DNA of 64,000 bases from Pontibacter roseus DSM 17521 (GTDB lineage: Bacteria > Bacteroidota > Bacteroidia > Cytophagales > Hymenobacteraceae): assembly GCF_000373265.1 (NCBI RefSeq), contig NZ_KB890761.1:545389-609388 (forward strand). The letters run 5' to 3'. A program made the translations under genes and the position numbers. Positions 1-64,000 of this stretch are shown here, piece after piece. Below the pieces are notes generated by a model. The model was not told the DNA's origin. It was given only the letters and a program-made list of their open reading frames with translations, and did not search any database. Position 1 is the stretch's first letter; every line of letters starts with the position of its first letter.

Positions 1-89
1 GCACCGTGTACCGAGTGGTAGTGCTCATTTAGTTCGGGCACGTACAGGGTATTGGAGCCGTCTTTGGTCTGCCTGATTTCGAGATGCAT
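1..89 (-). CDS. mnmD: MnmD-like tRNA methyltransferase, N-terminal fragment at window edge
   Basis: Only the first 29 codons are in the window, starting at the ATG at 89 and running off the left edge. The readable protein begins MHLEIRQTKDG and continues NTLYVPELNEHYHSVHGA. This matches the N-terminus of the Bacteroidota stand-alone MnmD family, in which 'TLYVPELxExYHSxHGA' is typical. These SAM-dependent enzymes complete the 5-methylaminomethyl-2-thiouridine modification of wobble U34. The SAM-binding part lies outside the window, so the call rests on the N-terminal signature alone. Confidence 0.6.
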   Translation of the reverse strand, partial: MHLEIRQTKDGSNTLYVPELNEHYHSVHG

Positions 90-229
90 TTTAAATTGTT
101 TACTTTACAAATGTAAGCAATGCTTTGTGCTGTCTGCAATACAAAATGCAGGGATTTTGCAAAAAACAAAGCTCTCTTGACTGATTTTCAACGACGGGTG
201 GCTTCGGCTATACCTTCACGCTCCATTCC

Positions 230-658
230 ATGGCCCGAATAAAAGTAGCTATACCTGCGCACGTCGCCTTTGTGGCGACCATCCCCATCCGCATCACCGA
301 CTTGAACTACGGCGCCCACCTCGGCAACGATGCCCTGCTTTCTATCCTGCACGAGGCGCGCCTGCAGCTGCTGCGCCACTTCGGCTATACCGAGCTGGAC
401 CTGGGCGGCGCCAGCCTCATCATGGCCGATGTCGCCATCGAGTACAAAGGCGAAGGCTTCTACGGCGATGTGCTGACGCTGAAGCTGGCCTTTGATGATG
501 TGCACCGGTATGGCTTCGACATCACCTACCACGTGCTGAACCAGCAGGGCAAGGAAGTGGCGCGCGCCAAGACGGGCATGCTGTGCTTCAATTATCAGGA
601 GCGGAAATTAATGGCGCTCCCCAACGAAGTAAAGTCCCGGATTGAAACTAAAGCCTGA
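230..658 (+). CDS. Acyl-CoA thioesterase, hotdog fold (YbgC/FadM-like)
   Basis: This 142-aa protein has the length and layout of single-domain hotdog thioesterases that hydrolyse acyl-CoA in the cytosol. The N-terminal half carries RITDLNYGAHLGN followed by LHEARLQLLRHFGY, corresponding to the family's D-x-N-x-G-H-V-N-N catalytic Asp and helix-cap region. A conserved beta segment, YKGEGFYGDVLTL, follows. Substrate cannot be deduced. It lies 21 bp upstream of rlmN on the same strand, although rlmN seems to have its own -7 box. Two TATACCT words lie at about 208 and 249, one just before the start and one inside the first codons. Confidence 0.85.
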   Translation: MARIKVAIPAHVAFVATIPIRITDLNYGAHLGNDALLSILHEARLQLLRHFGYTELDLGGASLIMADVAIEYKGEGFYGDVLTLKLAFDDVHRYGFDITYHVLNQQGKEVARAKTGMLCFNYQERKLMALPNEVKSRIETKA

Positions 659-667
659 GTATTTTTG

Positions 668-675
668 TAATTTTG
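668..675 (+). promoter_or_regulatory. -7 box TAATTTTG for rlmN
   Basis: TAATTTTG fits the Bacteroidota -7 consensus TAnnTTTG and ends only 4 bp before the rlmN ATG at 680. Transcription would then begin at or next to the start codon, giving a leaderless message. A -33 TTG at 644-646 is present with a longer than usual spacer. Confidence 0.4.
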
Positions 676-679
676 TGGT

Positions 680-1753
680 ATGAATTTGATTGCAGATATA
701 CCCGTTTTAAATAAAAAGGACATCCGAAAGCTGACGCTGGACGACCTGAAGGCCTGGCTCGTGGAGCAGGGCGAGAAGGCGTTCCGTGCCAAGCAGGTCT
801 ACGAGTGGATTTGGAAGCACTCAGCGCAGTCGTTTGACGAGATGAACAACGTGAGCCTGGCCTTGCGCGAGAAGCTGGATCAGCACTTCGCCATCAACGC
901 GGTGCAGGTGGCCACCAAGCAGCTCAGCAACGACGGCACCATCAAATCTGCTTTCCGGCTCTATGACAACAACATTGTAGAGGGCGTGCTCATTCCGCAC
1001 GATGAGCGCAAGACAGCCTGCGTGAGCAGCCAGGTGGGTTGCTCGCTTACCTGCAAGTTCTGCGCCACCGGTTACATGGACCGTGTGCGCAACCTCGACG
1101 CTGCTGAGATATACGACCAGGTGGTGCGCATCAACGAGCAGAGCATGCAGCAGTACGGCCAACCGCTCACCAACATCGTGTACATGGGCATGGGCGAGCC
1201 GATGCTCAACTACGCCAACGTGATGAAGAGCATTGAGCGCATCACGGCGCATGATGGTTTGGGTATGGCCGCGCGCCGCATCACAGTGAGCACGGCAGGT
1301 ATAGCCAAGATGATAAAGAAGATGGCCGACGATGGCGTGAAGGCCAACCTGGCTTTGTCGCTGCACGCCGCCAACGATGAGAAGCGCAATCAAATCATGC
1401 CCATCAACGAGACCAACTCGCTGGAGGCCCTGACGGAGGCGCTGAAGCATTTCCATGAGGTGACGGGACGCAAGGTAACCTATGAGTACATCGTGTTCGA
1501 TAACTTCAACGACTCGCTGCAGGATGCGGAGGAGCTGCTGCGCTTCACCAAAATCATCCCCTGCAAGGTGAACCTTATTGAATACAACCCGATTGAGAAC
1601 GCCAACTTCGTGAACACCAACGAGGACCGCCTGGAGAAGTTCATCTATTACCTGGCAGACCGTGGGGTGCAGGTGAACGTACGCCGCAGCCGTGGCAAGG
1701 ACATCGACGCCGCCTGCGGACAGCTGGCCGTGAAAGAGAAGCAACCGGCGTAA
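680..1753 (+). CDS. rlmN: 23S rRNA (adenine-2503-C2)-methyltransferase RlmN, radical SAM
   Basis: This 357-aa protein is the normal length for RlmN, which methylates C2 of A2503 in 23S rRNA and of A37 in some tRNAs. The radical-SAM cluster motif CxxxCxxC is at residues 121-128 (CSLTCKFC). The SAM-binding stretch NIVYMGMGEPMLNY follows. A C-terminal Cys in DAACGQLA fits the resolving/methyl-accepting cysteine. The N-terminal helical domain (DLKAWLVEQGEKAFRAKQ) is typical. The start ATG at 680 is chosen because the -7 box lies just before it. An AGGTATAG word lies inside the gene at about 1308. Confidence 0.97.
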   Translation: MNLIADIPVLNKKDIRKLTLDDLKAWLVEQGEKAFRAKQVYEWIWKHSAQSFDEMNNVSLALREKLDQHFAINAVQVATKQLSNDGTIKSAFRLYDNNIVEGVLIPHDERKTACVSSQVGCSLTCKFCATGYMDRVRNLDAAEIYDQVVRINEQSMQQYGQPLTNIVYMGMGEPMLNYANVMKSIERITAHDGLGMAARRITVSTAGIAKMIKKMADDGVKANLALSLHAANDEKRNQIMPINETNSLEALTEALKHFHEVTGRKVTYEYIVFDNFNDSLQDAEELLRFTKIIPCKVNLIEYNPIENANFVNTNEDRLEKFIYYLADRGVQVNVRRSRGKDIDAACGQLAVKEKQPA

Positions 1754-1773
1754 GCCGAACAGCTATACCTATA

Positions 1774-1818
1774 AAAATCGAGCGCCTCTGCTATACCTTA
1801 GCAGAGGCGCTCGATTTT
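1774..1818. terminator. Bidirectional terminator with TATACCT loop
   Basis: A perfect 18-bp stem (1774-1791 with 1801-1818) encloses the 9-nt loop TATACCTTA. A runs on one side and T runs on the other let it serve both rlmN (+) and the BrkB gene (-), which converge here. The loop is a copy of the iterated genomic word. Confidence 0.85.
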
Positions 1819-1838
1819 ACTTTTCAAGAAGTCCGTTG

Positions 1839-2828
1839 TCAGCTCGCCTTATTGAACCGTCCTTCCGGTTTGGGCCTGCCGCTGGCGATGTCCTGCGGGA
1901 AGTTGGTGACCTCCTGCTCCCGGAACAGCACGGCGTGCTCTTTCGGGCGAATCTCCTGCCCAAACGCGCTAGCGTACTGCTGCGTGAGCTCCGCCCCGAA
2001 CAGCACAATCAGCGAGGAATAGTATATCCAGACGAGTATCACAATCATGGAGCCGGCCGCGCCATAGGCGGAGCCCGGGTCGCTGGTGCTGATGTACCAG
2101 CTGATGAGGAACTTACCGATGGTGAAGAGCGCCGCGGTGATGAAAGCCCCTATCCAAACGTCCTTCCAGCGGATGAAGGCATCGGGCAGGTACTTGAAAA
2201 TGAGGGAGAACAGCGCCGTGATGATACCGATGGACAGGATGAAGTCGACTGCCTTGATGAGGAAATAGAGCACATCCGGGGAGATGAACTGCAGGTACTC
2301 GTCAAACAGCGCCCGCAGGTAACCGCTCAAGATGGAGATGACCGCACTGAGCAGCAGTGAGACCAGCATGAGCAGCGCGATGCTCAGTACGATGCCGAAG
2401 GAAAACATACGCACCTTGAGCATCTTCACGATGCCGTTGGTTGGCTTGGGCTTCACGTTCCATACCCGGTTCAGCGACTCCTGCAGGGTAGCAAAGAAAG
2501 TGGTGGAGGCGAAAATCAATGTGCCGATGCCTATCCAGAAGGCCAAACCGCCGCTTTCGCTCATGGCCGCGTTCTGGATGATGGTCTCTATCGTATCGGC
2601 GGCGCTGGGCCCTATAGCGGCCGAAATCTGCTTGGAGAGCTCCCCCGAGACCGCCTCTTCCCCGAAGAAGAACCCGGCCGCCTGGATGATGATGACCAGC
2701 AGCGGCGGTATGGAGAAGATGGCGTTGAAAGCCAGGGCGGCCGCCATCATCAAGGAGCCGTTGTCCGTAAAGCCGGCAAACGTGGATTTGAGCAGAGGCC
2801 CAATTTTACTTATAGTAGAGCTAGCCAT
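1839..2828 (-). CDS. YihY/BrkB family inner-membrane protein
   Basis: The protein is about 329 aa from the preferred start (MASSTISKIGPLLKS); an in-frame ATG 48 bp upstream would add 16 residues. It shows the BrkB/YihY pattern: AAALAFNAIFSIPPLLVIII near the N-terminus, then about six hydrophobic segments, with SLNRVWNVKPKP and SDPGSAYGAAGSMIVILVWI in the family positions. The C-terminal tail is hydrophilic (EIRPKEHAVLFREQE). The family was once called RNase BN, which is not supported; its members are membrane proteins of uncertain, possibly transport, role. It is transcribed alone and ends at the shared terminator at 1774-1818. Confidence 0.88.
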   Translation of the reverse strand: MASSTISKIGPLLKSTFAGFTDNGSLMMAAALAFNAIFSIPPLLVIIIQAAGFFFGEEAVSGELSKQISAAIGPSAADTIETIIQNAAMSESGGLAFWIGIGTLIFASTTFFATLQESLNRVWNVKPKPTNGIVKMLKVRMFSFGIVLSIALLMLVSLLLSAVISILSGYLRALFDEYLQFISPDVLYFLIKAVDFILSIGIITALFSLIFKYLPDAFIRWKDVWIGAFITAALFTIGKFLISWYISTSDPGSAYGAAGSMIVILVWIYYSSLIVLFGAELTQQYASAFGQEIRPKEHAVLFREQEVTNFPQDIASGRPKPEGRFNKAS

Positions 2829-2978
2829 AAAGTCTGTTTTCTGTGTCTGAATAGCTTTTTGATACGGCCGCCGCAAATCATTGGTTAGATTTTGGAGGCT
2901 TCAGCCCGAAAACCGAAGCGCAGGAACGGCGGCCGACGCAAGATTACGTATAGGGATTATCCTAATTCAAACTCGCCT

Positions 2979-3740: not shown

Positions 3741-3743
3741 AGG

Positions 3744-5198
3744 CTAAAGTTTCTGCACCGTGGCCGTGAGGTTGCCGCGGGCATTCACAACAGCTTTTAT
3801 ACCAGTAGGGGTGAGGTAGATGTTGTCCAGCACCAGGTCATTGACCGCGCCACGCAACAGCACCGCCTCATGCACGCGGCCGGATTGGTTCAGCGTGTGC
3901 TGCAGCAGGTTCCGAATATCCGCCAGTTGCGACTGCACAGGTATGTTCACCGCTCCCTGAATCATCTCCTTGAACTTATTTTTGGCAAGCCAACTGGCCG
4001 TGTTCAGCAGCATGTCCTGCGTGTCCAGGTCATAATCCACATCGCGCAGCTTAATGGAGGCAGTGGCAGCATCGTAGTAGGGGGTGCCGCGCAGGTATAC
4101 CTTGCCCACCAGTTTTTTGGTGAACAGGCCCGCCTTGGTCTTGCCGTCCACATCCAGCATCAGTACAAGCTGCTCTCCGTGTGGGGTGATGGCCGCATCC
4201 TTCACCGTCACCTGGCTCTTGCCGTCGTCAAAGGTATAGGTCTGGTCAGCGACTTGCGCCTGCATCAGGGTGCTGGCGTGGCTATAGGGTACAGTAGCCG
4301 TTAGGCCAATCTGGATGTCGTCGCTCATGCGGTTATCGATGATGAGCTTAGGCAGGTTCCGGTTCACCTGCGTCTGGGGCTTGCCGTCGGTGGTGACCTG
4401 TATGTAGGAGGTGATGCCCAAGCGCGTCTGGAGGCTGCCGTTGTGGGCGTATAGCGGCGCTATACGCACTTCCTGCGGCACCACGCTGAGCCAGGCATTG
4501 AGTTTTTCGTCTAGCTTCACCGGCTGCTGCATCAGGGCCCAGGTGTCGGCTACGTATTGGCGGATGTTGAGGCGGTTCTGAATCTCCTTGTCCAGTTGGC
4601 GCGCTATCAGGTTCATCTGCTGCTTCATGGCCGGCTCCACGAAGCGGGCGAGGCCAATCTTGAGCGGGCCCAGCTGGATGTAGGGCTTGGTGTTGCCCCA
4701 CTCAAAATCACCCGTTGTGATGGTGTTGATTTTGTAGTCTTCGGACAGGCCAAAGCGGCTTTCCGTGTTCACGACCATGTCGAAGGAGGTGTCTTCCGTT
4801 TTGTTGATGGAGGGGCATACCTTGCAGGCTTCCCATTGCCAGCGACCTTTGGCGTATACCTGCAGCGGCACACTGAAGTAGATTTTGTCTTTCTCGGCCC
4901 GGATGGTCATGCGCCCCTTCTTAACGACCGTGACCGCTACGTTGTCGCCTTCCAGGTTATCGTCTTTGTAGAGCGTGCCCTGCAGCTCCTGGTTCAGTTT
5001 GTCCTCAATGGTAGTCAAAGGTATGGACACCGGTATGCTGATGGAGGAGAGCCGAGGCTGGTAAGCCGGAGCAGTCGAGGCCATAGCTGCGGGTGCGGGT
5101 GGTGCCAGCAGCGAGGTGCTGGAGCAGGCCTGGAACGTGAGCACGCTGCCAATGACGAAGAAAATGAAAACCAGCTGAAGGGGAGTGAGTCGGAACAC
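3744..5198 (-). CDS. DUF4403 family lipoprotein
   Basis: A 484-aa protein with a hydrophobic N-terminus and lipobox (VLTFQAC, Cys25), so it is probably a lipid-anchored envelope protein. It contains ISIPVSIPLTTIEDKLNQEL, WGNTKPYIQLGPLKIG and the two-half, beta-rich repeat structure I associate with DUF4403, a family of unknown function in Bacteroidota and Proteobacteria. A short CKVCPS motif at about residue 124 may be a metal or disulfide site. It lies downstream of the thioredoxin-like gene with a 74-bp gap, so the two may be co-transcribed. Several iterated words, including the palindrome AGGTATACCT at 4093, lie inside. Confidence 0.85.
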   Translation of the reverse strand: MFRLTPLQLVFIFFVIGSVLTFQACSSTSLLAPPAPAAMASTAPAYQPRLSSISIPVSIPLTTIEDKLNQELQGTLYKDDNLEGDNVAVTVVKKGRMTIRAEKDKIYFSVPLQVYAKGRWQWEACKVCPSINKTEDTSFDMVVNTESRFGLSEDYKINTITTGDFEWGNTKPYIQLGPLKIGLARFVEPAMKQQMNLIARQLDKEIQNRLNIRQYVADTWALMQQPVKLDEKLNAWLSVVPQEVRIAPLYAHNGSLQTRLGITSYIQVTTDGKPQTQVNRNLPKLIIDNRMSDDIQIGLTATVPYSHASTLMQAQVADQTYTFDDGKSQVTVKDAAITPHGEQLVLMLDVDGKTKAGLFTKKLVGKVYLRGTPYYDAATASIKLRDVDYDLDTQDMLLNTASWLAKNKFKEMIQGAVNIPVQSQLADIRNLLQHTLNQSGRVHEAVLLRGAVNDLVLDNIYLTPTGIKAVVNARGNLTATVQKL

Positions 5199-7035: not shown

Positions 7036-7039
7036 ACAG

Positions 7040-7269: not shown

Positions 7270-7289
7270 CTATACCTGCACAGGTATAG
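7270..7289. repeat. Inverted pair of the iterated word
   Basis: CTATACCTG and CAGGTATAG face each other across 2 bp, forming a 20-bp near-palindrome in the leader of the repeat-protein gene. It could fold as RNA or be a paired DNA site. Confidence 0.7.
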
Positions 7290-7310
7290 GAAAGCGGTGG
7301 GACTTGCGAT

Positions 7311-12906: not shown

Positions 12907-13461
12907 TTGATTAGTCAAACACACCAGGAATATAATCAGGTAGTAAACCGCTGCAAAGACACCTTCGTCAAGAAGACCCTGGATTACGGAACGGCCTGGC
13001 GAATCCTGCGGCTTCCGTCCATCACCGACCAGATTTTCATCAAGGCCCAACGCATCCGCTCCATCCAGGAAAAGGGCGTGCAACTGGTGGAGGACGACAT
13101 CCGGGACGAGTTCGTGGGCATCATCAACTACTGCGTGATTGCGCTGATGCAGCTCAGCTTGCAGGACAGCACCGAACTGACGCTGTCGGCCGAGGAGGTG
13201 GAGCGCATGTACTCCGAGCAGATAGAGGAGAACCTGCAGCTGCTCAACGCCAAGAACCACGACTACGGTGAGGCCTGGCGCGACATGCGTGTGAGCTCCA
13301 TCACTGACATCATCCTGATGAAGCTATACCGTACCAAGCAGATAGAGGACAACCAGGGGCAGACGCTCATCTCAGAAGGCGTGGAAGCCAACTACCGCGA
13401 CATGATTAACTATGCCGTCTTCGCCCTAATCAAGCTGGACTTCTCCGAGACGGTGAAGTAA
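12907..13461 (+). CDS. Tandem DUF1599 protein
   Basis: A 184-aa protein built of two copies of one module. Copy 1 is KTLDYGTAWRILRLPSITD...KAQRIRSIQ (about residues 20-55). Copy 2 is KNHDYGEAWRDMRVSSITD...KLYRTKQIED (about 117-150). Each is followed by an acidic helix and NYxVxAL. DUF1599 is related to nucleotide-modification-associated domains; its function is unproven. The start must be TTG (12907), as no ATG lies in frame nearby. It precedes the BT_3928-like and aroK genes, an order I recall in other Bacteroidota. Confidence 0.88.
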   Translation: MISQTHQEYNQVVNRCKDTFVKKTLDYGTAWRILRLPSITDQIFIKAQRIRSIQEKGVQLVEDDIRDEFVGIINYCVIALMQLSLQDSTELTLSAEEVERMYSEQIEENLQLLNAKNHDYGEAWRDMRVSSITDIILMKLYRTKQIEDNQGQTLISEGVEANYRDMINYAVFALIKLDFSETVK

Positions 13462-13479
13462 GGTATAAGGTATAAGTTT

Positions 13480-25431: not shown

Positions 25432-28400
25432 ATGAAACAGTTCAAGCCGACCAGTTGGTCTATTGACAATAGAACGAGTATCTACATCATCACCATCATC
25501 ATCACGCTGGCGGGTATATACTCGTACATTAAGCTCCAGAAAGAGAACTTCCCTGACATTGTGATTCCGACGGTGTTCGTGGGCACCATCTATCCGGGCA
25601 CATCTCCGGCCGACATCGAGAACCTGGTGACGCGCCCTATTGAAAAGCAGCTGAAAGCCATTTCAGGAGTCAAAAAGGTGACTTCCAATTCCATTCAGGA
25701 CTTCTCCATGATTACGGTGGAGTTCAACACCGATGTGGATGTGGTAGAGGCCAAGCAGCTGGTGAAAGATGCCGTGGACAAAGCCCGCACAGACTTGCCC
25801 ACCGACCTAGACCAGGACCCGAACGTGCAGGAGGTCAACTTCTCCGAGTTCCCCATCATGTACCTCAACGTGTCAGGCAACTACAGCCTGGACCGCCTGA
25901 AGAAGTACGCCGAAGACCTACAGGACCGCATCGAGGCCCAGCCCGAAATCACACGCGTGGACATGGTAGGCGCCCTGGACAAGGAGGTGCAGGTGAACGT
26001 GGACCTGTACAAGATGCAGGTGGCGCAGGTGACCTTTGCTGACATCAACCGGGCCATCGCCTCTGAGAACGTGACGGTGTCGGGTGGCAACATATCCGTA
26101 GGCGAGATGAAGCGCTCGGTGCGCGTGGTGGGGCAGTACACTGACCCAAACCGGATTGGCGACATCGTGGTGAAATCCTTGTCGGGCGCCAACATCCAGC
26201 TGAAGGAGATTGCCGAGGTGAAAGAGGGCTTCGAGGAGCAGGAAAGCTTCGCCCGCCTCGACAACGCGCCCGTCATCACCCTCAATGTCATCAAGCGCAG
26301 TGGCGAGAACCTTATAGAGGCCTCGGACAAAATACACGCCCTGGTGGAGGACATGGAAGGCAGCGTGCTGCCCGACGACCTGAAAATCACCATCACTGGC
26401 GACCAGTCCACGCAGACGCGCCATACCCTGAATGACCTGATTAACACCATCATCATCGGCTTTGTGCTGGTGACGATTATCCTGATGTTCTTCATGGGAG
26501 TGACCAATGCAGTCTTTGTGGGTTTGTCGGTGCCGTTGTCCATGTTCATCGCTTTCATCCTGATGCCGGTGATGGGCTTCTCACTCAACATGATTGTGCT
26601 CTTCTCGTTCCTGCTAGCCTTGGGCATCGTGGTGGACGATGCCATTGTGGTGATTGAGAACACGCACCGCATCCTGCACCAGTCCAACCTGAGTGTGGTC
26701 AGGTCGGCAAAGGTGGCGGCAGGAGAGGTGTTCGTGCCCGTTTTGGCCGGTACGCTCACCACGGTGGCGCCGTTTCTGCCGCTAGCCTTCTGGCCAGGTA
26801 TAGTGGGTAAATTCATGTTCTTCCTGCCCATAACGCTGATAGTGACCCTAATGTCCTCGCTGCTGGTGGCCTTCATCATCAACCCGGTTTTCGCGGTCTC
26901 ATTCATGAAGAAGGAGCATGAACTGGACCAAGACATTTCCCCACGCGCCCGCAGAACCTTCTGGCTGTTGGTGGGCGCGGCCTTCTTGGTAGCCGTTGTG
27001 GCCTACTTGGCTGGCTGGTATGGCACAGCCAACCTGGTGATGCTGGGTCTGGTGCTGGTGCTGCTCAACCGCTTCCTGTTCCGGCGCATGATACATGGCT
27101 TTCAGAATAAGACGCTGCCCCGCTTCATGCGCGGGTATGAGCGTCTGCTGCGCTGGATGCTGGTGGGTATGCGCCCGGTATGGATGTTTCTGAGCGTCAT
27201 CGGACTGCTTTTCTTCTCCTTATTTTTGACAGCCGTGCGTCCGCCAAAAGTTGTGTTTTTCCCGGAGTCGGACCCGAACTTCGTCTATACCTATATCAGC
27301 ATGCCGATAGGCACGGACCAGGCTGTGACTGACTCAGTTACCCGTGCGGTGGAGCGGCGCATCAACCAGGTGGTGGGTGCCGAGAATCCTGATGTGGAAT
27401 CGGTCATTTCCAATGTGGCCATCGGGGCAGGCGACCAAAACGACCGCAGCACGACGGCACAATCTCACTTAGGGAAGGTTACCGTAGCCTTTGTGGAGTA
27501 TCAATACAGAACCGGAGAGCGGAGCAGCCGCGAGTATATGGATGAGATTCGAGATGCGGTGCGTGGTATACCGGGCGCCAACATCACCGTGGACCAGGAG
27601 CAGAACGGTCCGCCGGTAGGCAAGCCTGTCAGCATCGAAATCGCCGGAGAGGACTTTGAAGGACTGATTGCCCTTTCCAAGCAGGTGGAGCAGTACATCG
27701 ACCAGCAGCAGATAGGAGGTATAGAGGAGCTGCGCAGCGATTTGGAGGACAGCAAGCCGGAAATCGTCATCAACATTGACCGCGAGCGTGCCAACCGCGA
27801 GGGAATCAGCACCGGGCAGGTAGGTATGGAGTTGCGCACGGCGATTTTCGGGGAGGAGGCCTCCAAATTCAAACTGGACGAGGAGGAGTACCCGATTCAA
27901 GTGCGCTATGCTGAGCCTTACCGAGAGAACATAGACGCGCTGCTGGACATGCGCATCACCTACCGCGACATGAACAGCGGGTTGGTGCGCCAAATCCCGC
28001 TTTCATCGCTGGCCACGATTGAGTACAGCAACTCCTATGGCGGCATCAAACGCAAGAACCTGAAACGCGTGGTGACGCTGGAGTCGAACGTGCTGGGCGG
28101 TTACAATGCCAACGAGGTGGTGATGAACATCGAGAGCGCGCTGCGCGACTTTGAGACGCCGGAAGGCTATGAGGTGAAGATGGGCGGACAGCAGGAGGAG
28201 CAGGAGGAAACGGCCAACTTCCTGATGGTGGCCCTGGTGGCGGCTTTCTGCATCATCTTCCTGATTCTGGTGACGCAGTTCAACTCGGTGTCAAAACCGT
28301 TCATCATCCTGTCGGAGGTACTGTTCAGCATCATCGGCGTGCTGCTGGGCTTTTCTATCTTCGGGATGGATGCCTCCATTGTGATGACAGGGGTGGGCAT

Positions 28401-28863
28401 TGTGGCGCTGGCCGGCATAGTGGTGAAGAACGGTATCCTGATTGTGGAGTTTACGGACCTGCTGCTGGAAGAGGGCAAGGAGTTGAAGGAGGCCATTGTG
28501 GAGGCGGGCAAGACGCGCCTGAACCCGGTGCTGCTCACAGCCACGGCCACTATACTAGGCCTGATACCGCTGGCGTTAGGTATAAACCTGAACTTCTATA
28601 CCTTGTTCACGGAGTTCAAACCGAACTTCTTCATGGGTGGTGACAGTGCCGCTTTCTGGGGACCGCTAGCCTGGACGATTATTTTTGGCCTGGGCTTTGC
28701 TACGGTCGTAACGCTGCTGATCGTGCCGGTGATGTACCTGCTCAACGAGCGCCTAAAGAGAAAGATAAAAGGTGACAAGAAGCCTGCCGGAGCCGTGAAA
28801 CTTCCAGACGGCCAGCAGGTAGAAGCGCCTGTAAATGGGAAAGTTAGAGAATACACCGTATAA
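25432..28863 (+). CDS. RND efflux transporter permease
   Basis: A 1143-aa proton-driven pump of the AcrB superfamily, slightly longer than the usual 1030-1070. The first helix (TSIYIITIIITLAGIYSYIK) is followed by FVGTIYPGTSPADIENLVTR. The proton-relay Asp pair is in LALGIVVDDAIVVIENTHR, and the second half has GIVALAGIVVKNGILIVEF. An extra hydrophobic segment near residues 505-540 (VGAAFLVAVVAYLAGWYG) explains part of the added length. Substrates cannot be told; the operon lacks drug-specific genes. The acyl carrier gene begins 2 bp after its stop. Confidence 0.96.
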   Translation: MKQFKPTSWSIDNRTSIYIITIIITLAGIYSYIKLQKENFPDIVIPTVFVGTIYPGTSPADIENLVTRPIEKQLKAISGVKKVTSNSIQDFSMITVEFNTDVDVVEAKQLVKDAVDKARTDLPTDLDQDPNVQEVNFSEFPIMYLNVSGNYSLDRLKKYAEDLQDRIEAQPEITRVDMVGALDKEVQVNVDLYKMQVAQVTFADINRAIASENVTVSGGNISVGEMKRSVRVVGQYTDPNRIGDIVVKSLSGANIQLKEIAEVKEGFEEQESFARLDNAPVITLNVIKRSGENLIEASDKIHALVEDMEGSVLPDDLKITITGDQSTQTRHTLNDLINTIIIGFVLVTIILMFFMGVTNAVFVGLSVPLSMFIAFILMPVMGFSLNMIVLFSFLLALGIVVDDAIVVIENTHRILHQSNLSVVRSAKVAAGEVFVPVLAGTLTTVAPFLPLAFWPGIVGKFMFFLPITLIVTLMSSLLVAFIINPVFAVSFMKKEHELDQDISPRARRTFWLLVGAAFLVAVVAYLAGWYGTANLVMLGLVLVLLNRFLFRRMIHGFQNKTLPRFMRGYERLLRWMLVGMRPVWMFLSVIGLLFFSLFLTAVRPPKVVFFPESDPNFVYTYISMPIGTDQAVTDSVTRAVERRINQVVGAENPDVESVISNVAIGAGDQNDRSTTAQSHLGKVTVAFVEYQYRTGERSSREYMDEIRDAVRGIPGANITVDQEQNGPPVGKPVSIEIAGEDFEGLIALSKQVEQYIDQQQIGGIEELRSDLEDSKPEIVINIDRERANREGISTGQVGMELRTAIFGEEASKFKLDEEEYPIQVRYAEPYRENIDALLDMRITYRDMNSGLVRQIPLSSLATIEYSNSYGGIKRKNLKRVVTLESNVLGGYNANEVVMNIESALRDFETPEGYEVKMGGQQEEQEETANFLMVALVAAFCIIFLILVTQFNSVSKPFIILSEVLFSIIGVLLGFSIFGMDASIVMTGVGIVALAGIVVKNGILIVEFTDLLLEEGKELKEAIVEAGKTRLNPVLLTATATILGLIPLALGINLNFYTLFTEFKPNFFMGGDSAAFWGPLAWTIIFGLGFATVVTLLIVPVMYLLNERLKRKIKGDKKPAGAVKLPDGQQVEAPVNGKVREYTV

Positions 28864-32608: not shown

Positions 32609-32731
32609 GTGAAGTTAGAAAGGTAAATAATGTGGGGAAACAGGCAGGTATACCTTCAGTCCAGCTTCTGCTGCTACTCTGGAAGGGTAAGCCAGTTGGC
32701 AGAACGCAAGAAGCACATTTACTAAAAAAGG

Positions 32732-34664: not shown

Positions 34665-34699
34665 TTATGCCTATGCTATACCTACAGCTATACCTATAC

Positions 34700-35245
34700 C
34701 TAGGGCTGCAGCAGTGCCAGCAGCTGCTCGGCTGGTTGCTCCAGCAGGTAGACCAGCACCACATCGAGCACCAGCAGGAACAGGCCCTGCAGCACGACCG
34801 ATTGGCCCCAGCCCAGTTGCTGCTCTGTCTTCGGGGAGTTCTTGGCCAGCTCTTTCAGGTAGGCACCCAAGAGCAGGAACGCCACATCCATCCCAATGCT
34901 CAGGTAGAACACCTTGATGTACCCGTAGTGGAAGCGCACGCTTTCGCTCAGAGTGCGCGTGGCGGCGTCATACGACAATATATAATACAGAGCCGCACCG
35001 GCGATAAGGACATTGACGATGTTCCAGTAGATGTTCATCTGGTGGAAGTAGCGCTTGTTTCGGGACGACTTAGTGAGTTTGAAGCTGCCCACCACAATGT
35101 TGAGGAGCGCCCACATACCTAGCACCAGCATACCAATCTTCAGGGTCTCTGCCTGCCGCAGGTTAAACGAAGCAAGGGCATCGCTCTGCGCATTGGCTGC
35201 CAGCGAGAGCAGCAAAAGGGGGAGCAGGCAAAGGTATTTTCTCAT
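34700..35245 (-). CDS. Four-helix membrane protein with signal peptide, unknown
   Basis: A 181-aa protein. MRKYLCLLPLLLLSLAANAQ is a signal peptide. Four membrane helices follow: GMLVLGMWALLNIVVG, YWNIVNVLIAGAALYYIL, FYLSIGMDVAFLLLGAYL and GLFLLVLDVVLVYLL. Conserved-looking loops are RNKRYFHQMNIYWN and FHYGYIK. I recognise similar proteins in Bacteroidota but no function. It is monocistronic. Confidence 0.75.
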   Translation of the reverse strand: MRKYLCLLPLLLLSLAANAQSDALASFNLRQAETLKIGMLVLGMWALLNIVVGSFKLTKSSRNKRYFHQMNIYWNIVNVLIAGAALYYILSYDAATRTLSESVRFHYGYIKVFYLSIGMDVAFLLLGAYLKELAKNSPKTEQQLGWGQSVVLQGLFLLVLDVVLVYLLEQPAEQLLALLQP

Positions 35246-56217: not shown

Positions 56218-58452
56218 ATGAAACACTTTTTACGCATCGCGCTTTTCTTCCTGCTAGCCACATCCTACGTCGTAGCCCAGGAGCCGCTGCGCTTCAGCCT
56301 GCGCACCGATGTGCCCGTGATCACGCCAACCGGCGCCCTTTCCAACCCATGGAGCGGCGGGCTCAACGCCCCCCAGTTCTCCACCATCGACCTCAACAAA
56401 GACGGGCAAGACGACCTCCTCATCTTCGACAGGATGCTGCGCAAGGCGTTCACTTACCTGGCGGTGCAGGAGGGAGGCAAATGGGGCTACCGATACGCGC
56501 CGGAGTACGAGGCGATGTTCCCGCAGGGGCTGGAGCACTGGGTGCTGCTGCGCGACTACAACTGCGACGGCCTCAAAGACATTTTCACCAGCACCTCATT
56601 GGGCATACAGGTATACCGGCAGGAGGCAACCAACGCCAAGTTTTCCAAGTTCGTGCTCGCCCAGGAGGCCCTCTTCTACAGGAGCCGCAGCGGCACCAGC
56701 AACATCAACATGCAGATGAACAACGCCGACATACCCGCCATCGTGGACATGGACGGCGACGGTGACTTGGACATTCTGATAACGGAGTTCTCCGGCGGCT
56801 ATACCTTGGAGTATTACCAGAACATGCAGGTGGAGGAAGGGCTAGCCTGTGGTTCGCTGGCCTTCACGCTCGGCTCCGACTGGTGGGGACAGATAAGCGA
56901 GTGCCACGGCTGCAACAACTTCGGGTTTGGCGTGCAGTGCCGCATGGCCGGACCGCTGCACTCGGGGCACGATGGCTCGGCCTTGCTGGCCCTCGACCTG
57001 GACGGAGACGGCGACAAAGACCTGCTCATGGGCAACGTGGAGTGCGAGAACCTGGTGAAGATGGAGAATAAGGGCACTAAGGCGCTGGCCCGCATGGAGA
57101 GTCTTGACGCGGCCTTCCCCGCCAGCTCCAAAGCGGCCAGCTTCAAGCTCTTCCCCGCCGCCTATTACGAAGACGTGACGTTTGACGGCATACCCGACCT
57201 GCTGGTAGCCCCGAACAGCAACGAGAACGGCACCGACTTGCACCAGGCCACTATTGAGGCGCAGCGCTCCGTATGGCTCTACCGCAACACCGGGCAGGCC
57301 GATAAGCCTGCTTTTGAATTCTTGCAGGATGATTTTCTGCAGCACCAGACCATTGACATGGGCGAGGGCGCTTTTCCGGCCTTCGCTGATGTGGATGGCG
57401 ACGGGAAACTGGACATGCTGGTGGGCAACAGCCGCTCCAACCGGAACGGGGAGTACATCGCTTCGCTCAGCCTGTACAAAAACACCGGAACCGCCACAGC
57501 GCCTGCGTATACCTTGCAGACGGATGACTACCTGGGGCTGGCGGCGCGGCACATGCTCTCCATCAAGCCTTCCTTCGCTGACATCAACCGCGATGGCAAA
57601 CCTGACCTGGTGCTCTTCTACCAGTCGCATCATGGCGGCGCTCAGATAAGCTATATGGCCAACACCGCCGCAGCCGGGCAGCCCTATGCCTTCGGGGCAG
57701 ACAACCTGCAGCTGCTCCACAACCTGGCGACTGGCGATGCCCCCTTCCTGTTCGATGTGAGCGGTGATGGCCTCCTGGACATGCTGGTCGGGAAGACGAG
57801 CGGCTCCCTGGACTATTACCGTAACACCGGCAACAACACCTTCGCGCTGGAGAAACAGGGATTTGGCGGCCTCGGCTTCGATTTCCTGCGACGCAACCTG
57901 CACCCCGCCGTGGCAGATTTGGATGGCAACGGAAAACCCGACCTGCTGACCGTGGACGATAGTGGAGAACTGCGGGTGTTCCCCGACTTTCAGGACAAAC
58001 TCACAGGCGACTTCACGGCCATTGTCGAGTTGCTAGAAAATGATTTGACAGGAGAGGTACACACCACCCGTTTAGGACGCGGACTGAGCCTGGCCTTGGC
58101 AGAACTTGGCGGGCCTGGCAAGCTATACCTGGCCATCGGGAGCCGGGGCGGCGGGCTATACCTGCTCGAGCAGACCGCGGGCAACAAAGCTATACCTGGC
58201 CAGGAAGAAGACGGGCTGGCGCTTCGGGTATACCCCAACCCATCGACAAGCCAGGAGCCCGTGCAGGTGCGTGCCGCTGAGCCGGTGGCCATCGTGCTGC
58301 ATGATATGATTGGCCGACAGGTGTACGCCGCAGGTGACAGCTTCAACCGGAACCACCGGCTATACCTGAATCACCTGAAGGCGGGCGTATACCTGCTGCG
58401 CGCCACCTCCCGTGACGGGAAACAGGAGACCCGCAAACTGGTGATTCAATGA
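56218..58452 (+). CDS. FG-GAP/VCBS repeat protein with type IX secretion domain
   Basis: A 744-aa secreted protein. After a signal peptide (MKHFLRIALFFLLATSYVVAQ) come eight Asp-rich FG-GAP-like blades, for example DLNKDGQDDLLIFD, DMDGDGDLDILI, DLDGDGDKDLLMG and DVDGDGKLDMLVG. They suggest a calcium-binding seven- or eight-bladed propeller. A short Cys-containing insert ECHGCNNFGFGVQC lies near residue 230. The C-terminus is a type A sorting domain (RVYPNPSTSQEPVQVRAAEP, LNHLKAGVYLLRATS, KLVIQ). It is exported by the type IX system to the cell surface, probably as an adhesin or enzyme-like scaffold. Confidence 0.93.
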   Translation: MKHFLRIALFFLLATSYVVAQEPLRFSLRTDVPVITPTGALSNPWSGGLNAPQFSTIDLNKDGQDDLLIFDRMLRKAFTYLAVQEGGKWGYRYAPEYEAMFPQGLEHWVLLRDYNCDGLKDIFTSTSLGIQVYRQEATNAKFSKFVLAQEALFYRSRSGTSNINMQMNNADIPAIVDMDGDGDLDILITEFSGGYTLEYYQNMQVEEGLACGSLAFTLGSDWWGQISECHGCNNFGFGVQCRMAGPLHSGHDGSALLALDLDGDGDKDLLMGNVECENLVKMENKGTKALARMESLDAAFPASSKAASFKLFPAAYYEDVTFDGIPDLLVAPNSNENGTDLHQATIEAQRSVWLYRNTGQADKPAFEFLQDDFLQHQTIDMGEGAFPAFADVDGDGKLDMLVGNSRSNRNGEYIASLSLYKNTGTATAPAYTLQTDDYLGLAARHMLSIKPSFADINRDGKPDLVLFYQSHHGGAQISYMANTAAAGQPYAFGADNLQLLHNLATGDAPFLFDVSGDGLLDMLVGKTSGSLDYYRNTGNNTFALEKQGFGGLGFDFLRRNLHPAVADLDGNGKPDLLTVDDSGELRVFPDFQDKLTGDFTAIVELLENDLTGEVHTTRLGRGLSLALAELGGPGKLYLAIGSRGGGLYLLEQTAGNKAIPGQEEDGLALRVYPNPSTSQEPVQVRAAEPVAIVLHDMIGRQVYAAGDSFNRNHRLYLNHLKAGVYLLRATSRDGKQETRKLVIQ

Positions 58453-58835
58453 TGCAGGCGCTGCTGTGGATGGACTTATCGGATGAACCAAACTTTGGGC
58501 AGCCGGTGCTGGCATGGGCGCGCCAGCACTTCCCGAATTTAGCTGTTTTTGATTTGGATACACGGTCGGAGGAGATGCTACAGCACTACGCCGTGCGGCT
58601 CCTGCAGGAGACACCGGGAACCATAGTCTGTTTGAAGGCCGGAGAGGGAAACTTGAACCAGTTGATGCCCTTGCTTGAAGAGCTGTTGCAGCCACAGCCG
58701 CAGCGCCACCTCCTGCTGTTAGGCCACCACCCACGCCTGTCGCGCATGCTACATGCCAGGCCAACTATACGGCACAGTGCAGTGGCTGATGAAGAGGAAT
58801 TGAAGCGACTTTTGCTGCAGCTTATCCCAGCGTAA
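58449..58835 (+). CDS. Small protein overlapping the type IX cargo gene, unknown
   Basis: A 128-aa protein whose start overlaps the previous stop (58449-58452), so it is translationally coupled to the surface propeller gene. No signal peptide or membrane segment. Sequence (LVLAWARQHFPNLAVFD-like core, LLQETPGTIVCLKAGEG, RHLLLLGHHPRLSRML) shows an alpha/beta alternation but no motif I recognise. Its stop overlaps the convergent amidase gene by 14 bp. Function is unknown; it may be a cytosolic regulator or chaperone-like partner (speculative). Confidence 0.7.
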   Translation: MMQALLWMDLSDEPNFGQPVLAWARQHFPNLAVFDLDTRSEEMLQHYAVRLLQETPGTIVCLKAGEGNLNQLMPLLEELLQPQPQRHLLLLGHHPRLSRMLHARPTIRHSAVADEEELKRLLLQLIPA

Positions 58836-61390: not shown

Positions 61391-61450
61391 ATCCGGGTGA
61401 AGTATAGACGAACGAAGATATTACTTGCAACGAAGAAACCAAGTGGAAGT

Positions 61451-62032
61451 TTAGCCGAGTGCCTCTGCCACGAGCTGCTGCAGCACTGGCACCGCCTCCT
61501 GTTCAAACCACGGGTGCCTTTTCAGCCAGAACTGGTTGCGCGGCGAAGGGTGGGGCAGGGGCATGTAAGCTGGCAGATAATCGGCCCAGGCTGTCACGGT
61601 TTCGGTGAGGGTAGTCTTTGCTGATTGACCCAAAAAGTAATCCTGCGCATATTTGCCTACCAGAAGCGTCAGTTGGATGTTGGGCAGCAGCGGGAGCAGT
61701 TGCTGGTGCCAGTGCTGGGCGCACTCGGGGCGGGGCGGCAGGTCACCGCTCTTGCCTTTGCCCGGATAGCAGAAGCCTATCGGCACAATCGCCACCTGGC
61801 TCTCATCGTAAAAGACCTCGGGCGAAATCCCCATCCACTGCCGCAGGCGCTTGCCGCTCTGGTCGTCCCAGGGTATGCCGCTGGCATGCACGCGGGTGCC
61901 AGGTGCCTGCCCCACAATCAGCAGCCTGGCCGATGGCGACGCGCGCAGCACAGGACGTGGCCCATGTGGCAGATGCTCGGCACACATGCGGCAGGCGCGC
62001 ACTTGTTGCAGTAAGTTCTCTAGTTGCTCCAT
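61451..62032 (-). CDS. Uracil-DNA glycosylase superfamily protein
   Basis: A 193-aa protein; the start MEQLENLLQQVRACRMC is chosen because it begins the conserved domain. C14-x-x-C17 fits the iron-sulfur-type or structural site of this group, followed by LLIVGQAPGTRVHASGIPWD (motif 1) and the DLPPRPEC region; LLVGKYAQDYFLG and HPSPRN near the C-terminus are the second active-site motif. It matches the Bacteroidota uracil-DNA glycosylase family proteins of about 190 aa. It removes damaged bases or uracil, or acts as a homolog of unknown substrate. Confidence 0.88.
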   Translation of the reverse strand: MEQLENLLQQVRACRMCAEHLPHGPRPVLRASPSARLLIVGQAPGTRVHASGIPWDDQSGKRLRQWMGISPEVFYDESQVAIVPIGFCYPGKGKSGDLPPRPECAQHWHQQLLPLLPNIQLTLLVGKYAQDYFLGQSAKTTLTETVTAWADYLPAYMPLPHPSPRNQFWLKRHPWFEQEAVPVLQQLVAEALG

Positions 62033-62101
62033 GGTAATGCGGATAGGTGCAAAGGTAAAGACTCCTAACAAATTATAGCGGCAAAAGTATAAGCAGGAGA
62101 T

Positions 62102-62686
62102 ATGCAGTGGACAAAACTTCTGGTATGGCTCTGGGTGCTCCTGTTGGTGCCGCCACTGGCACTGGCGCAGGAGGCCCCTATGTGGAAGAACGCATTCACC
62201 GTAAAATTCTTCGGACTGTCGGTGCACTTGCGCGAAACCCCTTACCCGGAGATATTCCGCAACCGCCTCGACGAAAGGGGCATACTGGTGGCCAACTTTG
62301 GAGGCATAATCGGGTATGACCGCTTTGTGGTGCGCGATGTCATCAGCGTGCGGGTGCAGCAGGGCCTGTATTCCGACTGCGCCTCCTCACTGGCGGGCTT
62401 CACCCACCTGGGCTGGCGCGGCCAGATTTTCAAGACGGGCAGGCATTCGCTTAACGGAGGCATAGGCCCCACACTGGTATACCGCCGCGATTGGAACCGA
62501 CTGAAAGGATATGAGGATGATGGTTACTTCAGCCGCAGCCGCGACTGGCAGTACAAATTCTACTGGTATGCGGGGGAGTTGGAGTACAATTACCGGCTTT
62601 CGGAACAGAACGACCTGTCGCTCAACTTGGTGCCGGGTATACCTGAATTGGTCTCTTTTGGAATAGGAATGAGGCGGCGTTTTTAG
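62102..62686 (+). CDS. Exported barrel-like protein, unknown
   Basis: A 194-aa protein with signal peptide (MQWTKLLVWLWVLLLVPPLALAQ). The mature part is beta-rich and aromatic: GILVANFGGIIGYDRFVVRD, SLNGGIGPTLVYRRDW, FYWYAGELEYNYRL and the terminal SFGIGMRRRF. The spacing resembles small outer-membrane barrels with a YxRDW loop. No known family. It is monocistronic, ending at a hairpin. Confidence 0.75.
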   Translation: MQWTKLLVWLWVLLLVPPLALAQEAPMWKNAFTVKFFGLSVHLRETPYPEIFRNRLDERGILVANFGGIIGYDRFVVRDVISVRVQQGLYSDCASSLAGFTHLGWRGQIFKTGRHSLNGGIGPTLVYRRDWNRLKGYEDDGYFSRSRDWQYKFYWYAGELEYNYRLSEQNDLSLNLVPGIPELVSFGIGMRRRF

Positions 62687-62688
62687 CA

Positions 62689-62733
62689 CAGAGCCCCTGC
62701 AGCCCGTTATTGGAAGGGGCTGCAGGGGCTCTG
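62689..62733. terminator. 17-bp-stem hairpin
   Basis: CAGAGCCCCTGCAGCCC pairs with its complement over an 11-nt loop between convergent genes. Little T tract follows, but the position suggests termination. Confidence 0.6.
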
Positions 62734-62754
62734 CGGATGTGCTATACCTTATAC

Positions 62755-63180
62755 CTACCAGCCGCGATTATCCCAGTCTTCGTCGCGCCGGCTCTGGCGG
62801 CGGTGGCGCTGCTCCCGCAGGGGCGGCAGGTTCTCTTGCTGCTGCCAACGATCACGGGCATGCTGGTTCTCCGGCGTGAAGTGGCCGGGGCTATGGCGCC
62901 ACTGGCGTTGCTCCTCCTGCCTGTCCGCGCCGCGGTGGTCATCCGAGAAGCCATGCTGGCGCCTGTTGATTTCCTCCGCCTGGGGTGGCCGGTGCTGCCT
63001 GTGCTCCCACTCCCGCTGCGCGCGGCTCTCTTCATAATCGCGCCGCTCCCGGTCGTGCATAAAAGGCTGGGGCTCCTCCCAACGGTTTCTGAAGGTCTGC
63101 TCCTCGTGCCAGGAGCGCTCATCGCGGTGCTGTGGCCTGTTGTGCCGTTCGTGGTATCGTTCTTCTTCCTCGTGATGCAT
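62755..63180 (-). CDS. His/Arg/Glu-rich low-complexity protein
   Basis: A 141-aa protein starting MHHEEEERYHERHNRPQHRD. About two thirds of the residues are His, Arg, Glu, Gln or Asp, in alternating runs (EEINRRQHGF, RQEEQRQWRH). Trp is frequent (EDWDNRGW at the end). No hydrophobic segment. It resembles the neighbouring gene's product in composition, so the two may be related. Possible roles are metal binding or a disordered stress protector (speculative). The upstream frame to 63543 crosses a terminator and is rejected. Confidence 0.65.
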   Translation of the reverse strand: MHHEEEERYHERHNRPQHRDERSWHEEQTFRNRWEEPQPFMHDRERRDYEESRAQREWEHRQHRPPQAEEINRRQHGFSDDHRGADRQEEQRQWRHSPGHFTPENQHARDRWQQQENLPPLREQRHRRQSRRDEDWDNRGW

Positions 63181-63325
63181 CTTGTTCAGGTTTAACGTTG
63201 AATTCTCCAGTCGAATGCCGTGGCTCAGCAGGCTGTGCGTCTGTAGGAAAGCGGGCACCCGTCTATGTTCTGATGTTTGTTTTACGGGCAGGTATGGCGG
63301 AGGTTCCTGCAATCGAGGGCCAGAT

Positions 63326-63367
63326 AAAAAAGAGAAGCCCGCCTTGTCGGGCGAGCTTCTCTTTTTT
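63326..63367. terminator. Terminator between the two charged-protein genes
   Basis: A-run, AGAGAAGCCCG, loop, CGGGC and TTCTCTTTTTT form an interrupted stem with T runs on both strands. It lies 43 bp downstream of the gene ending at 63410. Confidence 0.65.
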
Positions 63368-63409
63368 ACTAATCTACTACCAATTAACCTAATCAACTTT
63401 GTATACGCA

Positions 63410-64000
63410 TTACCTGCGGTAACGTTGGGTTTGGTCGATGTTTTTGTAGTGATTGTCCTTTCCTGAGTCTGTTTCGTCGGCCCAGCGGGGACCGCCCTCG
63501 TAGCCTTGGTCAAAATTGCGGTCACGATACTGCTCTGAACCATAGCGCTGTCTGCTGCTCAGGTGGTCGGCGCGCTGGTCATACCGCTGCCTGCGCTGGT
63601 AGTCTGTATCGTCTGAGTGCATGATGTCATTCCAGGTGTCGCGCACTTTCGTGAAGAAGCCGCGGTTGTCATCGCTCCTCGGCGCCACGTCAGGCGAATA
63701 GCGGCCTTCGCTGTACCAGTTATGGGAGCCGCTGCCGTAGCGGAAGTCGGTCTCCTTGTAGCGGCTGCGGGTGTCCGGCCCTTCCCGCCACAGGCTGTCC
63801 TGCGAGGTTGGGGGTTCATTGTAGTTGCCTGGCTGTGACCCATCCTGCACATAAGGCGGACGTTGGCCGCTACCATGCGTTCTATCGCCGTGGTTTAGAA
63901 AATGGCTCTCATTCCGGTAGTGGCTTCCCGGCTGGCTGCCGTAGTGGTCGTTCAGGTGAGCGCCCTCGCCTACGCGATACGAGGAGCCGCTGCTGCCTCC
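63410..64000 (-). CDS. SWFGD-like charged low-complexity protein, 5' end beyond window
   Basis: The frame stays open from 63410 to the right edge (197 codons visible), so the GTG at 63850 is not a needed start; the N-terminus lies outside. The visible part reads YRVGEGAHLNDHYGSQ, NESHFLNHGDRTHGSG, then WYSEGRYSPD, FFTKVRDTWNDIMHSDDTDY and a Gly/Arg/Asp/Tyr-rich tail. The repeated GSxxxYR and W/F-G-D-like pieces recall SWFGD-type stress-associated proteins. No membrane segment. It is probably a disordered, stress-induced protein. Confidence 0.7.
   Translation of the reverse strand, partial: GGSSGSSYRVGEGAHLNDHYGSQPGSHYRNESHFLNHGDRTHGSGQRPPYVQDGSQPGNYNEPPTSQDSLWREGPDTRSRYKETDFRYGSGSHNWYSEGRYSPDVAPRSDDNRGFFTKVRDTWNDIMHSDDTDYQRRQRYDQRADHLSSRQRYGSEQYRDRNFDQGYEGGPRWADETDSGKDNHYKNIDQTQRYRR

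Follow-up and report, generated by a model that had tools for sequence, protein, structure and literature searches.

A single seven-base word, AGGTATA/TATACCT, recurs throughout the window analysed here, a stretch of 64,000 nt from the genome of Pontibacter roseus, and raises the question of what could keep one short sequence so frequent in genes and gaps alike. An earlier note, made from the letters of this DNA, had estimated 105-110 copies in the 64 kb, some 13-fold above chance. The exact count is 113 (70 TATACCT and 43 AGGTATA), slightly above that estimate and about 41 times the first-order Markov expectation of 2.8.

Over-representation of the word

The word AGGTATA/TATACCT ranks first among all 7-mers of the window, and CTATACCT/AGGTATAG ranks first among its 8-mers (66 copies against 0.8 expected). 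The suggestion that the word is genome-wide holds: the whole genome contains 3,561 + 3,648 = 7,209 copies of the 7-mer on the two strands, compared with 137 + 159 = 296 for the reversed word used as a control, and about 4,500 copies of the 8-mer (2,196 + 2,304) against 51 + 57 for its control. A short asymmetric word that ranks first (in the window) and has thousands of copies on both strands (in the genome) is what is found in uptake sequences. The over-representation is both extreme and sequence-exact. AGGTATAG was seen 348 times against 13.8 expected (25x), and most substitutions at its positions 2-6 bring the ratio to about 1x, the exceptions being AAGTATAG (2.4x) and AGGTAGAG (3.0x). The 8-mer is asymmetric and occurs 66 times in the window; the palindromic GGTATACC occurs 20 times. 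Past about 10 bases the flanks carry almost no information, indicating that there is no larger repeat unit.

The comparison with codon usage that the note had proposed was run on the window genes. In 300 codon-preserving shuffles of 56 crudely called genes the word appeared 7.2 +/- 2.2 times (maximum 14), against 72 copies observed; the reversed word gave 3 observed versus 3.2 expected. Instead of the several reading frames noticed before, the word was found in every coding frame and on both gene strands (183 sense and 200 antisense among 577 words sampled), with the remaining 194 outside called genes. Because the excess over the codon shuffles and the use of all frames on both gene strands agree, the pressure acts on the DNA and not on the protein, as had been proposed. 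The claim that the word forces a rare Ile codon did not survive: ATA is not very rare in the called window genes, where it makes up 236 of 1,029 Ile codons, 27 of them lying wholly within words.

The spacing is near random, with a mean of 612 bp, a CV of 1.15 and some excess below 20 bp (560 gaps, about 371 kb sampled), in agreement with the one copy per 600 bp or so given earlier for genes and gaps. In the window the intergenic words are denser, 39 in 11.6 kb versus 74 that overlap called genes, which make up 52.4 kb. Neighbouring pairs at 60 bp or less number 19 in the window, 5 in +- order, 3 in -+ order and 11 on the same strand; 4 of them are overlapping dyads (Table 1).

Table 1. Arrangements of the word AGGTATA/TATACCT in the 64,000-nt window
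Feature	Positions	Strand	Source
Array of AGGTATA/TATACCT, 113 copies (43 +, 70 -), one every 570 bp or so	1..64000		exact count, all positions listed
Overlapping dyad AGGTATACCT, two words on opposite strands; further dyads of this form at 32646, 36244 and 40581	4093..4102		position list
Inverted pair TATACCT ... AGGTATA	7271..7288		position list
Head-to-tail word pair AGGTATAAGGTATA	13461..13474	+	position list
Three TATACCT inside 25 bp	34677..34701	-	position list
Cluster of five TATACCT, close to the 3' end of ORF 56218-58452	58124..58394	-	position list and ORF list
Two TATACCT head to tail	62743..62756	-	position list

Word-poor DNA

In three genomes we counted 10, 6 and 12 words in 40 kb of second replicon, whereas the chromosomes gave 56 in 60 kb, 28 in 20 kb and 24 in 20 kb. 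A defence island (L116, the one island) was also word-poor. The word is scarce in recently acquired DNA in this small sample, made up of the second replicons of three genomes and the island L116. One word-poor stretch of genome G029 was not foreign DNA and corresponded to the ribosomal/secY core operon region.

Dialects within the genus

In 39 of 50 Pontibacter genomes a leading word reaches at least 0.4/kb, and at least three dialects exist within this one genus: A (AGGTATA, AGGTATAG) in 12 genomes, B (AAGTATA, AAGTATAA) in 22 and C (AACTATA, AACTATAG) in 5. Among the other 11, one was weak and 10 had none of the three words at 0.2/kb. All dialect words follow the pattern NNNTATA and then mostly A, G or C, rarely T. 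The dialects share this core and follow the phylogeny, with A in one clade and C in one clade of a one-gene tree, and AAGTATA looks like the ancestral word. Mixed genomes were also present: G013, G045 and G015 contain both B and C, and a P. vulgaris locus has B at 2.7/kb together with A at 1.1/kb. Weak variants, NGGTATA and TATATA, appeared in two more species. Within the sampled order the word is restricted to one genus, AAGTATAA staying below 0.4/kb in all of the 371 genomes that represent 128 other genera. As a separate observation, genome size averages 4.59 Mb for the 39 word genomes and 5.71 Mb for the remaining 11 (Mann-Whitney p = 3.6e-6), a test that ignores kinship and that we do not count as evidence.

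The comparison between dialects shows that sites partly switch in place. In 14 B genomes, 86 of 287 AAGTATA sites differed by one base from the window, and 69 of these 86 were exactly AGGTATA there. Starting from the window sites, the switch was found in 69 of 311 cases for the B genomes versus 7 of 139 for six loci in which words are rare or absent. AACTATA sites were changed to AAGTATA in 56 of 1,964 cases in B loci (13 of the 14) and in 0 of 516 in four wordless loci; because all frames of at least 180 aa were used, sites are counted more than once and the contrast alone is informative. Within dialect A, 179 of 307 sites were conserved against 72.5 expected from frame-matched 7-mers. An excess of one-step mutants, expected in genome G021 as a sign of decay, was absent (transitions 1.32x versus 1.38-1.90x in the other B sets).

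Transformation genes

The set formed by comEC, dprA, a comF-like gene and a helix-hairpin-helix (HhH) gene was found in all 50 Pontibacter genomes, the comF-like matches scoring below the NCBI cut-off. Exactly two genomes, G021 and G040, had dprA and the comF-like gene interrupted. The gene comEC was interrupted in three, G021 and G040 (within the family match) and G038, where a frameshift outside the family match leaves a short open frame of 561 aa; for the other genomes the comEC frames outside the match were judged by length alone. In G021 the HhH gene was broken as well. Among the 39 word-bearing genomes, comEC was thus uninterrupted in 36, and dprA and the comF-like gene in 37. Random G021 genes taken as a control were intact in 64 cases and interrupted in one, the comEC of G040 being left out because it fell below the coverage cut-off. 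The interrupted random gene is a homologue of L080:11715, and in G021 a 126-aa gene adjoining dprA contains a single stop close to its beginning. Other apparent interruptions were set aside: that of a 273-aa gene in G040, G035, G029 and G037 is a start-site or spurious-frame artefact, and frames of 172 aa and 202 aa appear to be counter-strand readings.

The relation of these genes to the word is uneven. The enrichment in G021 was the lowest of five B sets (4.8x versus 10.7-13.4x), but G001, with intact genes, has an 8-mer density as low (0.45/kb compared with 0.46/kb in G021). Words are nevertheless frequent in G040 (1.10/kb), where comEC, dprA and the comF-like gene are interrupted, and the highest C count (1.82/kb) belongs to G038, with its frameshifted comEC. 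Both are draft genomes, and the gene loss may therefore be recent or partly sequencing error; the comEC frameshift of G038 leaves the odds of uptake as the explanation unchanged. All four genes were uninterrupted in the family matches of the weak genome and of the 10 wordless ones. The gene set is therefore no predictor of the word, and loss of HhH, DprA or ComF-like as a cause of wordlessness was discarded, all being present in wordless genomes. No full-length match to the pilus/secretion ATPase family PF00437 was found in the 50 genomes, the matches covering 38-66 of 370 positions; in 3 of the 50 such partial matches were marginally above the cut-off.

We also searched for a reader of the word. 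DUF5689, the family of a Riemerella surface protein, was matched in 22 of 50 genomes, including twelve short proteins that are all in word-bearing genomes, but in the window's own genome there were zero matches. Ten of the loci (L146-L155; L156 and L157 were left out) lie mostly beside SusD-like, TonB-receptor-like or glycosidase-like genes. These proteins look like accessories of polysaccharide loci, and we rejected them as readers. The neighbourhoods of comEC and of the HhH gene were alike in word-bearing and wordless genomes and gave no candidate receptor.

Discussion

The reading that we favour is that CTATACCT/AGGTATAG, for which sister species have AAGTATAA or AACTATAG instead, is probably an uptake sequence, marking DNA that a naturally transforming cell would prefer as being of its own kind. 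A putative envelope receptor would bind the word, the DNA would enter without a type IV pilus, ComEC would pass a single strand, and DprA and RecA would recombine it. Biased uptake and recombination would raise the frequency of the word in the genome. New dialects would start when the receptor changes its specificity, and loss of the receptor would let the word decay. To our knowledge, uptake sequences are known from two proteobacterial families only, and as both are thought to use pilus readers, it has been difficult to see which of their features are general. The uptake signal sequence (USS) of Pasteurellaceae is a genome-wide word thought to spread via biased uptake and recombination; its predicted reader is also a pilin, and it has AT-rich flanking motifs. 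The Pontibacter word, here a candidate uptake word, is likewise genome-wide, but no such flanking motifs were seen around it. The DNA uptake sequence (DUS) of Neisseriaceae is read by the pilin ComP and has 10-12 bases with a CTG core, whereas the Pontibacter word has 7-9 bases with a TATA core and belongs to Bacteroidota, where the 50 genomes gave no full-length pilus/secretion ATPase match. The two are alike in several respects: for the DUS, Frye et al. (2013, PMC3630211), who name ComP as its pilin reader, describe a short asymmetric word repeated thousands of times per genome, dialects that are specific to clades but have a common core, one genome carrying two dialects together, overlapping dyads and some wordless relatives.

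A pilus-free uptake model has been proposed for Riemerella, another member of Bacteroidota, and we likewise propose one for Pontibacter. In Riemerella, according to one study (PMC8459023), eight genes are essential; they include those for ComEC, DprA, ComF, RecA and an HhH protein and none for a pilus protein. Another study (PMC7965970) indicates that R. columbina favours its own DNA. ComEC, DprA, ComF and the three-HhH envelope protein have counterparts in Pontibacter, but the DUF5689 surface protein has no clear one. For Riemerella the authors list A/T-rich k-mers alone and no word comparable to that of Pontibacter.

A rather unlikely alternative is a methylation word like the cyanobacterial HIP1. 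A solitary methyltransferase would mark the word, a use in repair or regulation would keep its frequency, and the dialects would track changes of the target domain. Methyltransferase specificities change easily, which would fit the dialects. HIP1 is also a highly iterated word of genes and gaps, and the parts of PMC4390886 dealing with it tie its frequency to methyltransferases, an argument by analogy only. However, HIP1 is palindromic and the same in nearly all the cyanobacteria described in those parts, a few exceptional ones having other HIP sequences, whereas the Pontibacter word is asymmetric and changes inside one genus in many species. Of the two comparisons made in the earlier note, the one with uptake sequences stands as the closest analogue, and the one with HIP1 is weaker because the word is not a palindrome.

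It is quite improbable that the word is bound by a protein that organises the chromosome, or by another DNA-binding protein, and that ordinary purifying selection maintains thousands of such sites. The conservation within dialect A, beyond neutral expectation, would agree with such a site, but about 7,200 single sites at near-random spacing and in all coding frames would not, and neither would the scarcity on second replicons and in the defence island, or the fact that, in a single genus, the word has changed across whole genomes and been lost several times. A Chi-like recombination hot spot or a polar segregation signal (KOPS-like) is very improbable. The word is short, asymmetric and over-represented, as is Chi, a class named in portions of PMC4390886; but in 20 stretches of the single-contig genome G029, judged from GC skew, there was no replication-strand bias (155:162 where the skew is positive, 115:124 in the others), and the 8-mer enrichment of about 25x and the dialects inside a genus also speak against it. 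Finally, there is a negligible probability that the word results from a bias in codons or oligonucleotides or is left over from a small repeat element: zero supporting points were found, the shuffles gave 7.2 copies against 72, and the flanks are nearly uninformative past about 10 bases.

Returning to uptake, we give an even chance to the full scheme, a pilus-free machine in which a putative outer-membrane receptor reads the 8-base word and has switched specificity at least twice in the genus (from AAGTATA to AGGTATA and to AACTATA), each switch rewriting thousands of sites, partly base by base in place. Uptake sequences would then have arisen three times independently, the earlier two cases being Neisseriaceae and Pasteurellaceae, and this case would be the first from Bacteroidota and the first with a reader other than a pilin. 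In the literature found, no uptake or transformation experiment is reported for Pontibacter, and, in line with the earlier note, no such word for this phylum was among the matches listed in the open-licence PMC literature. If true, this would be an uptake tag new for the phylum, read without the pilus motor of the known tag readers. A third case, in a phylum far from the first two and with dialects, genomes of mixed dialect, switches and losses all inside one genus, would make the origin and turnover of such words open to comparative tests. It would also provide a handle on DNA uptake by Bacteroidota and a simple aid to genetic tools for environmental bacteria, by putting the right word on the DNA.

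Abundance and shape of the word

The heptamer AGGTATA/TATACCT belongs to a real DNA word that is genus-wide in Pontibacter and comes in dialects. In the window it is the most over-represented 7-mer, with an exact count of 113 copies in 64 kb (70 TATACCT and 43 AGGTATA), and the leading 8-mer is CTATACCT/AGGTATAG, with 66 copies vs 0.8 expected from dinucleotides. The earlier note would be refuted if codon and dinucleotide usage accounted for this excess, which was not the case in the window: 72 copies were found against a mean of 7.2 in 300 codon-preserving shuffles of the 56 called genes, with 14 as the maximum ever reached. The same note considered the word to be genome-scale. Indeed, the genome of P. 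roseus (4.58 Mb, 12 contigs) carries 3,561 + 3,648 copies of the 7-mer, versus 137 + 159 for the reversed, uncomplemented control.

We analyzed the motif over ~371 kb of this genome, made up of the window and 17 further stretches. One of the stretches shows no readable G or C; such letters are probably withheld in contig L087 (G000:C4, 1289 bp). The core AGGTATA is preceded by C (44%) or A (28%) and followed by G (60%) or C (24%) and then by C (52%). Information is near nil outside about ten bases, indicating that no longer repeat unit surrounds the word. Variants at positions 2-6 were mostly at expectation, the exceptions being AAGTATAG (2.4x) and AGGTAGAG (3.0x), and enrichment at the edges was seen for some variants: changes of the first base (2.0-5.1x), A7G (5.2x), and A (4.9x) or C (7.4x) as the last base. 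No coding frame is free of the word: of 577 copies, 183 are sense, 200 are antisense and 194 lie outside called genes. Its spacing along the genome is near random. An overlapping dyad, AGGTATACCT, appears four times in the window.

Features and loci with coordinates
Feature	Sequence	Coordinates	Observation
RND-type transporter	window	25432-28863	query for relatives; best hit P. aquaedesilientis at 91%
ORF	window	56218-58452
Word cluster	window	58124-58394	271 bp with five words, close to the 3' end of the ORF at 56218-58452
comEC region (L265)	G038, contig C23	49001-54500	frameshift in the C-terminal part of comEC, outside the family match
Defence island (L116)	G029, contig C1	3010001-3030000	AIPR, C5 (cytosine) methylase, PD-(D/E)XK nuclease, PRTase-CE/ORC-CDC6-like pair; also a UmuC-like polymerase

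Dialects across Pontibacter

The nearest relatives of the window transporter were from Pontibacter, and the top 8-mers of their loci were related yet different words in other species of the genus. Whole-genome counts in the 50 available genomes confirmed three dialects, A (AGGTATAG), B (AAGTATAA) and C (AACTATAG). With a cut-off of 0.4/kb for the leading 8-mer, 12 genomes were assigned to A, 22 to B and 5 to C, one was weakly B, and 10 had none of the three words at 0.2/kb. B and C words co-occur in three genomes (G013, G045 and G015). Outside the genus, the A word was at or below ~0.04/kb in 150 genomes of five other Hymenobacteraceae genera (0.5 to ~3.4 times a small control), and the B word stayed under 0.25/kb elsewhere in the order (128 other genera, 371 genomes), where the largest excess noticed over the control was ~2.4x.

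Two genomes may hold a fourth and a fifth dialect, at ~3-9 times expectation in ~100 kb each. G041 has NGGTATA words (GGGTATA 56 vs 12 expected, AGGTATA 57 vs 14, CGGTATA 54 vs 16; loci L138, L139, L211, L212 and the named locus L021), and G035 has ATATATAA (67 vs 7.4) and CTATATAG (24 vs 2.6; L132, L133, L203, L204, L259). P. qinzhouensis, P. beigongshangensis and G008, all wordless, have the strings ATTAGAAT, AGAATAAT and AATTATTC in common, enriched ~9-14x (L029, L045 and, in G008, L122, L123, L213, L214); these may stem from a repeat element or represent another word. Genomes lacking a strong word averaged 5.71 Mb vs 4.59 Mb for those with one, a gap of ~1.1 Mb (p = 3.6e-6, ignoring kinship). 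In several other Bacteroidota loci palindromic 8-mers lead (TACCGGTA in L044, L051, L054 and L055, CGGTACCG in L024), similar in form to HIP1 (HIP sequences are treated in PMC4390886).

Orientation and word-poor regions

A Chi-like or KOPS-like signal is a different explanation for such a word. In the single-contig genome G029, the orientation of the C word showed no link with the direction of replication as given by GC skew (155:162 in positive-skew stretches, 115:124 in the others), which speaks against both roles. In this genome four of 20 stretches were word-poor: the 8-mer occurs 0, 2, 4 and 8 times there, vs 16-51 times in the other sixteen. One is a defence island (L116), with 5 core words inside its 20 kb vs 35 in the preceding 10 kb. 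L118 has domains resembling those of toxins, with weak matches for three of the four, L113 is mixed and L115 is a ribosomal/secY/rpoA region, where coding constraint is the likelier cause of the scarcity. The second contigs of G001 (204 kb), G002 (116 kb) and G020 (74 kb) look like plasmids, without proof that they are. Their B words number 10, 6 and 12 per 40 kb, compared with chromosomal values of 56 per 60 kb, 28 per 20 kb and 24 per 20 kb.

Transformation genes

ComEC, DprA and a ComF-like protein (E ~1e-21 to 1e-31, short of the NCBI cut-off) were found in 50/50 genomes, and so was a ~315-aa protein that has three HhH motifs and is hydrophobic near its N-terminus, resembling the HhH protein of Riemerella (PMC8459023). 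Interruptions fall in the same two genomes, G021 and G040, for comEC (inside its family match), dprA and the comF-like gene (confirmed by alignment). The HhH gene is broken in the first and has a single early stop in the second. G038 has a split comEC and uninterrupted dprA and comF-like genes. Assuming comEC broken in 3/50 genomes, and dprA and the comF-like gene in two apiece, both pairs would fall within the three comEC genomes with a chance of 3/1225 x 1/1225 = ~2e-6 (6.7e-7 if comEC is broken in two). Most neighbouring genes are intact, 27 in G021 and 34 in G040; each genome has four flagged ones, and one of those in G040 is an artefact. Among 65 conserved genes from random stretches of G021, 64 were intact and one was interrupted (L253, a homologue of L080:11715). 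These gene states show that the transformation set is under selection in most of Pontibacter. Taken alone, this does not connect the word with the set.

PF00437, the ATPase family that serves type IV pili as well as type II/IV secretion, gave only short matches in the 50 genomes (38-66 of 370 positions), barely passing the cut-off in three, and a pilus-type uptake motor is therefore unlikely.

The word as a proposed uptake sequence

One comparison is in favour of a link between the word and the gene set: G021, where the set is lost, has the weakest enrichment of five B sets (4.8x vs 10.7, 10.9, 11.9 and 13.4x). Others count against it. G001 has intact genes and an 8-mer density as low as that of G021, G040 and G038 keep 1.10 and 1.82 words per kb despite interrupted genes, G021 shows no surplus of one-step mutant words relative to the other B sets, and the wordless genomes retain the gene set. 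The simplest repair would be to assume that wordless species lost the reader of the word and kept transformation, and that what G040 and G038 lost was lost recently or is in part an error of sequencing.

Eight genes were found essential in Riemerella anatipestifer, ComEC, DprA, ComF, RecA and four without known transformation homologues (PMC8459023). In R. columbina, which favours DNA of its own kind, the authors looked for uptake words and list only A/T-rich k-mers (PMC7965970). Searches of open-licence PMC papers gave no match for Pontibacter with uptake sequence and a sole one, concerning LexA, for Pontibacter with natural transformation; no such word in Bacteroidota was described among the matches listed. 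The pilus feature of the Neisseriaceae DUS (for its dialects see PMC3630211) and the Pasteurellaceae USS was looked for in Pontibacter through PF00437 and not found. Because of this, and since uptake itself, unlike the word counts and gene states, is something we infer here, the word should not be classed as either. Still, it behaves most like an uptake sequence, and we lean, somewhat beyond even chances, towards its being an uptake tag in Pontibacter.
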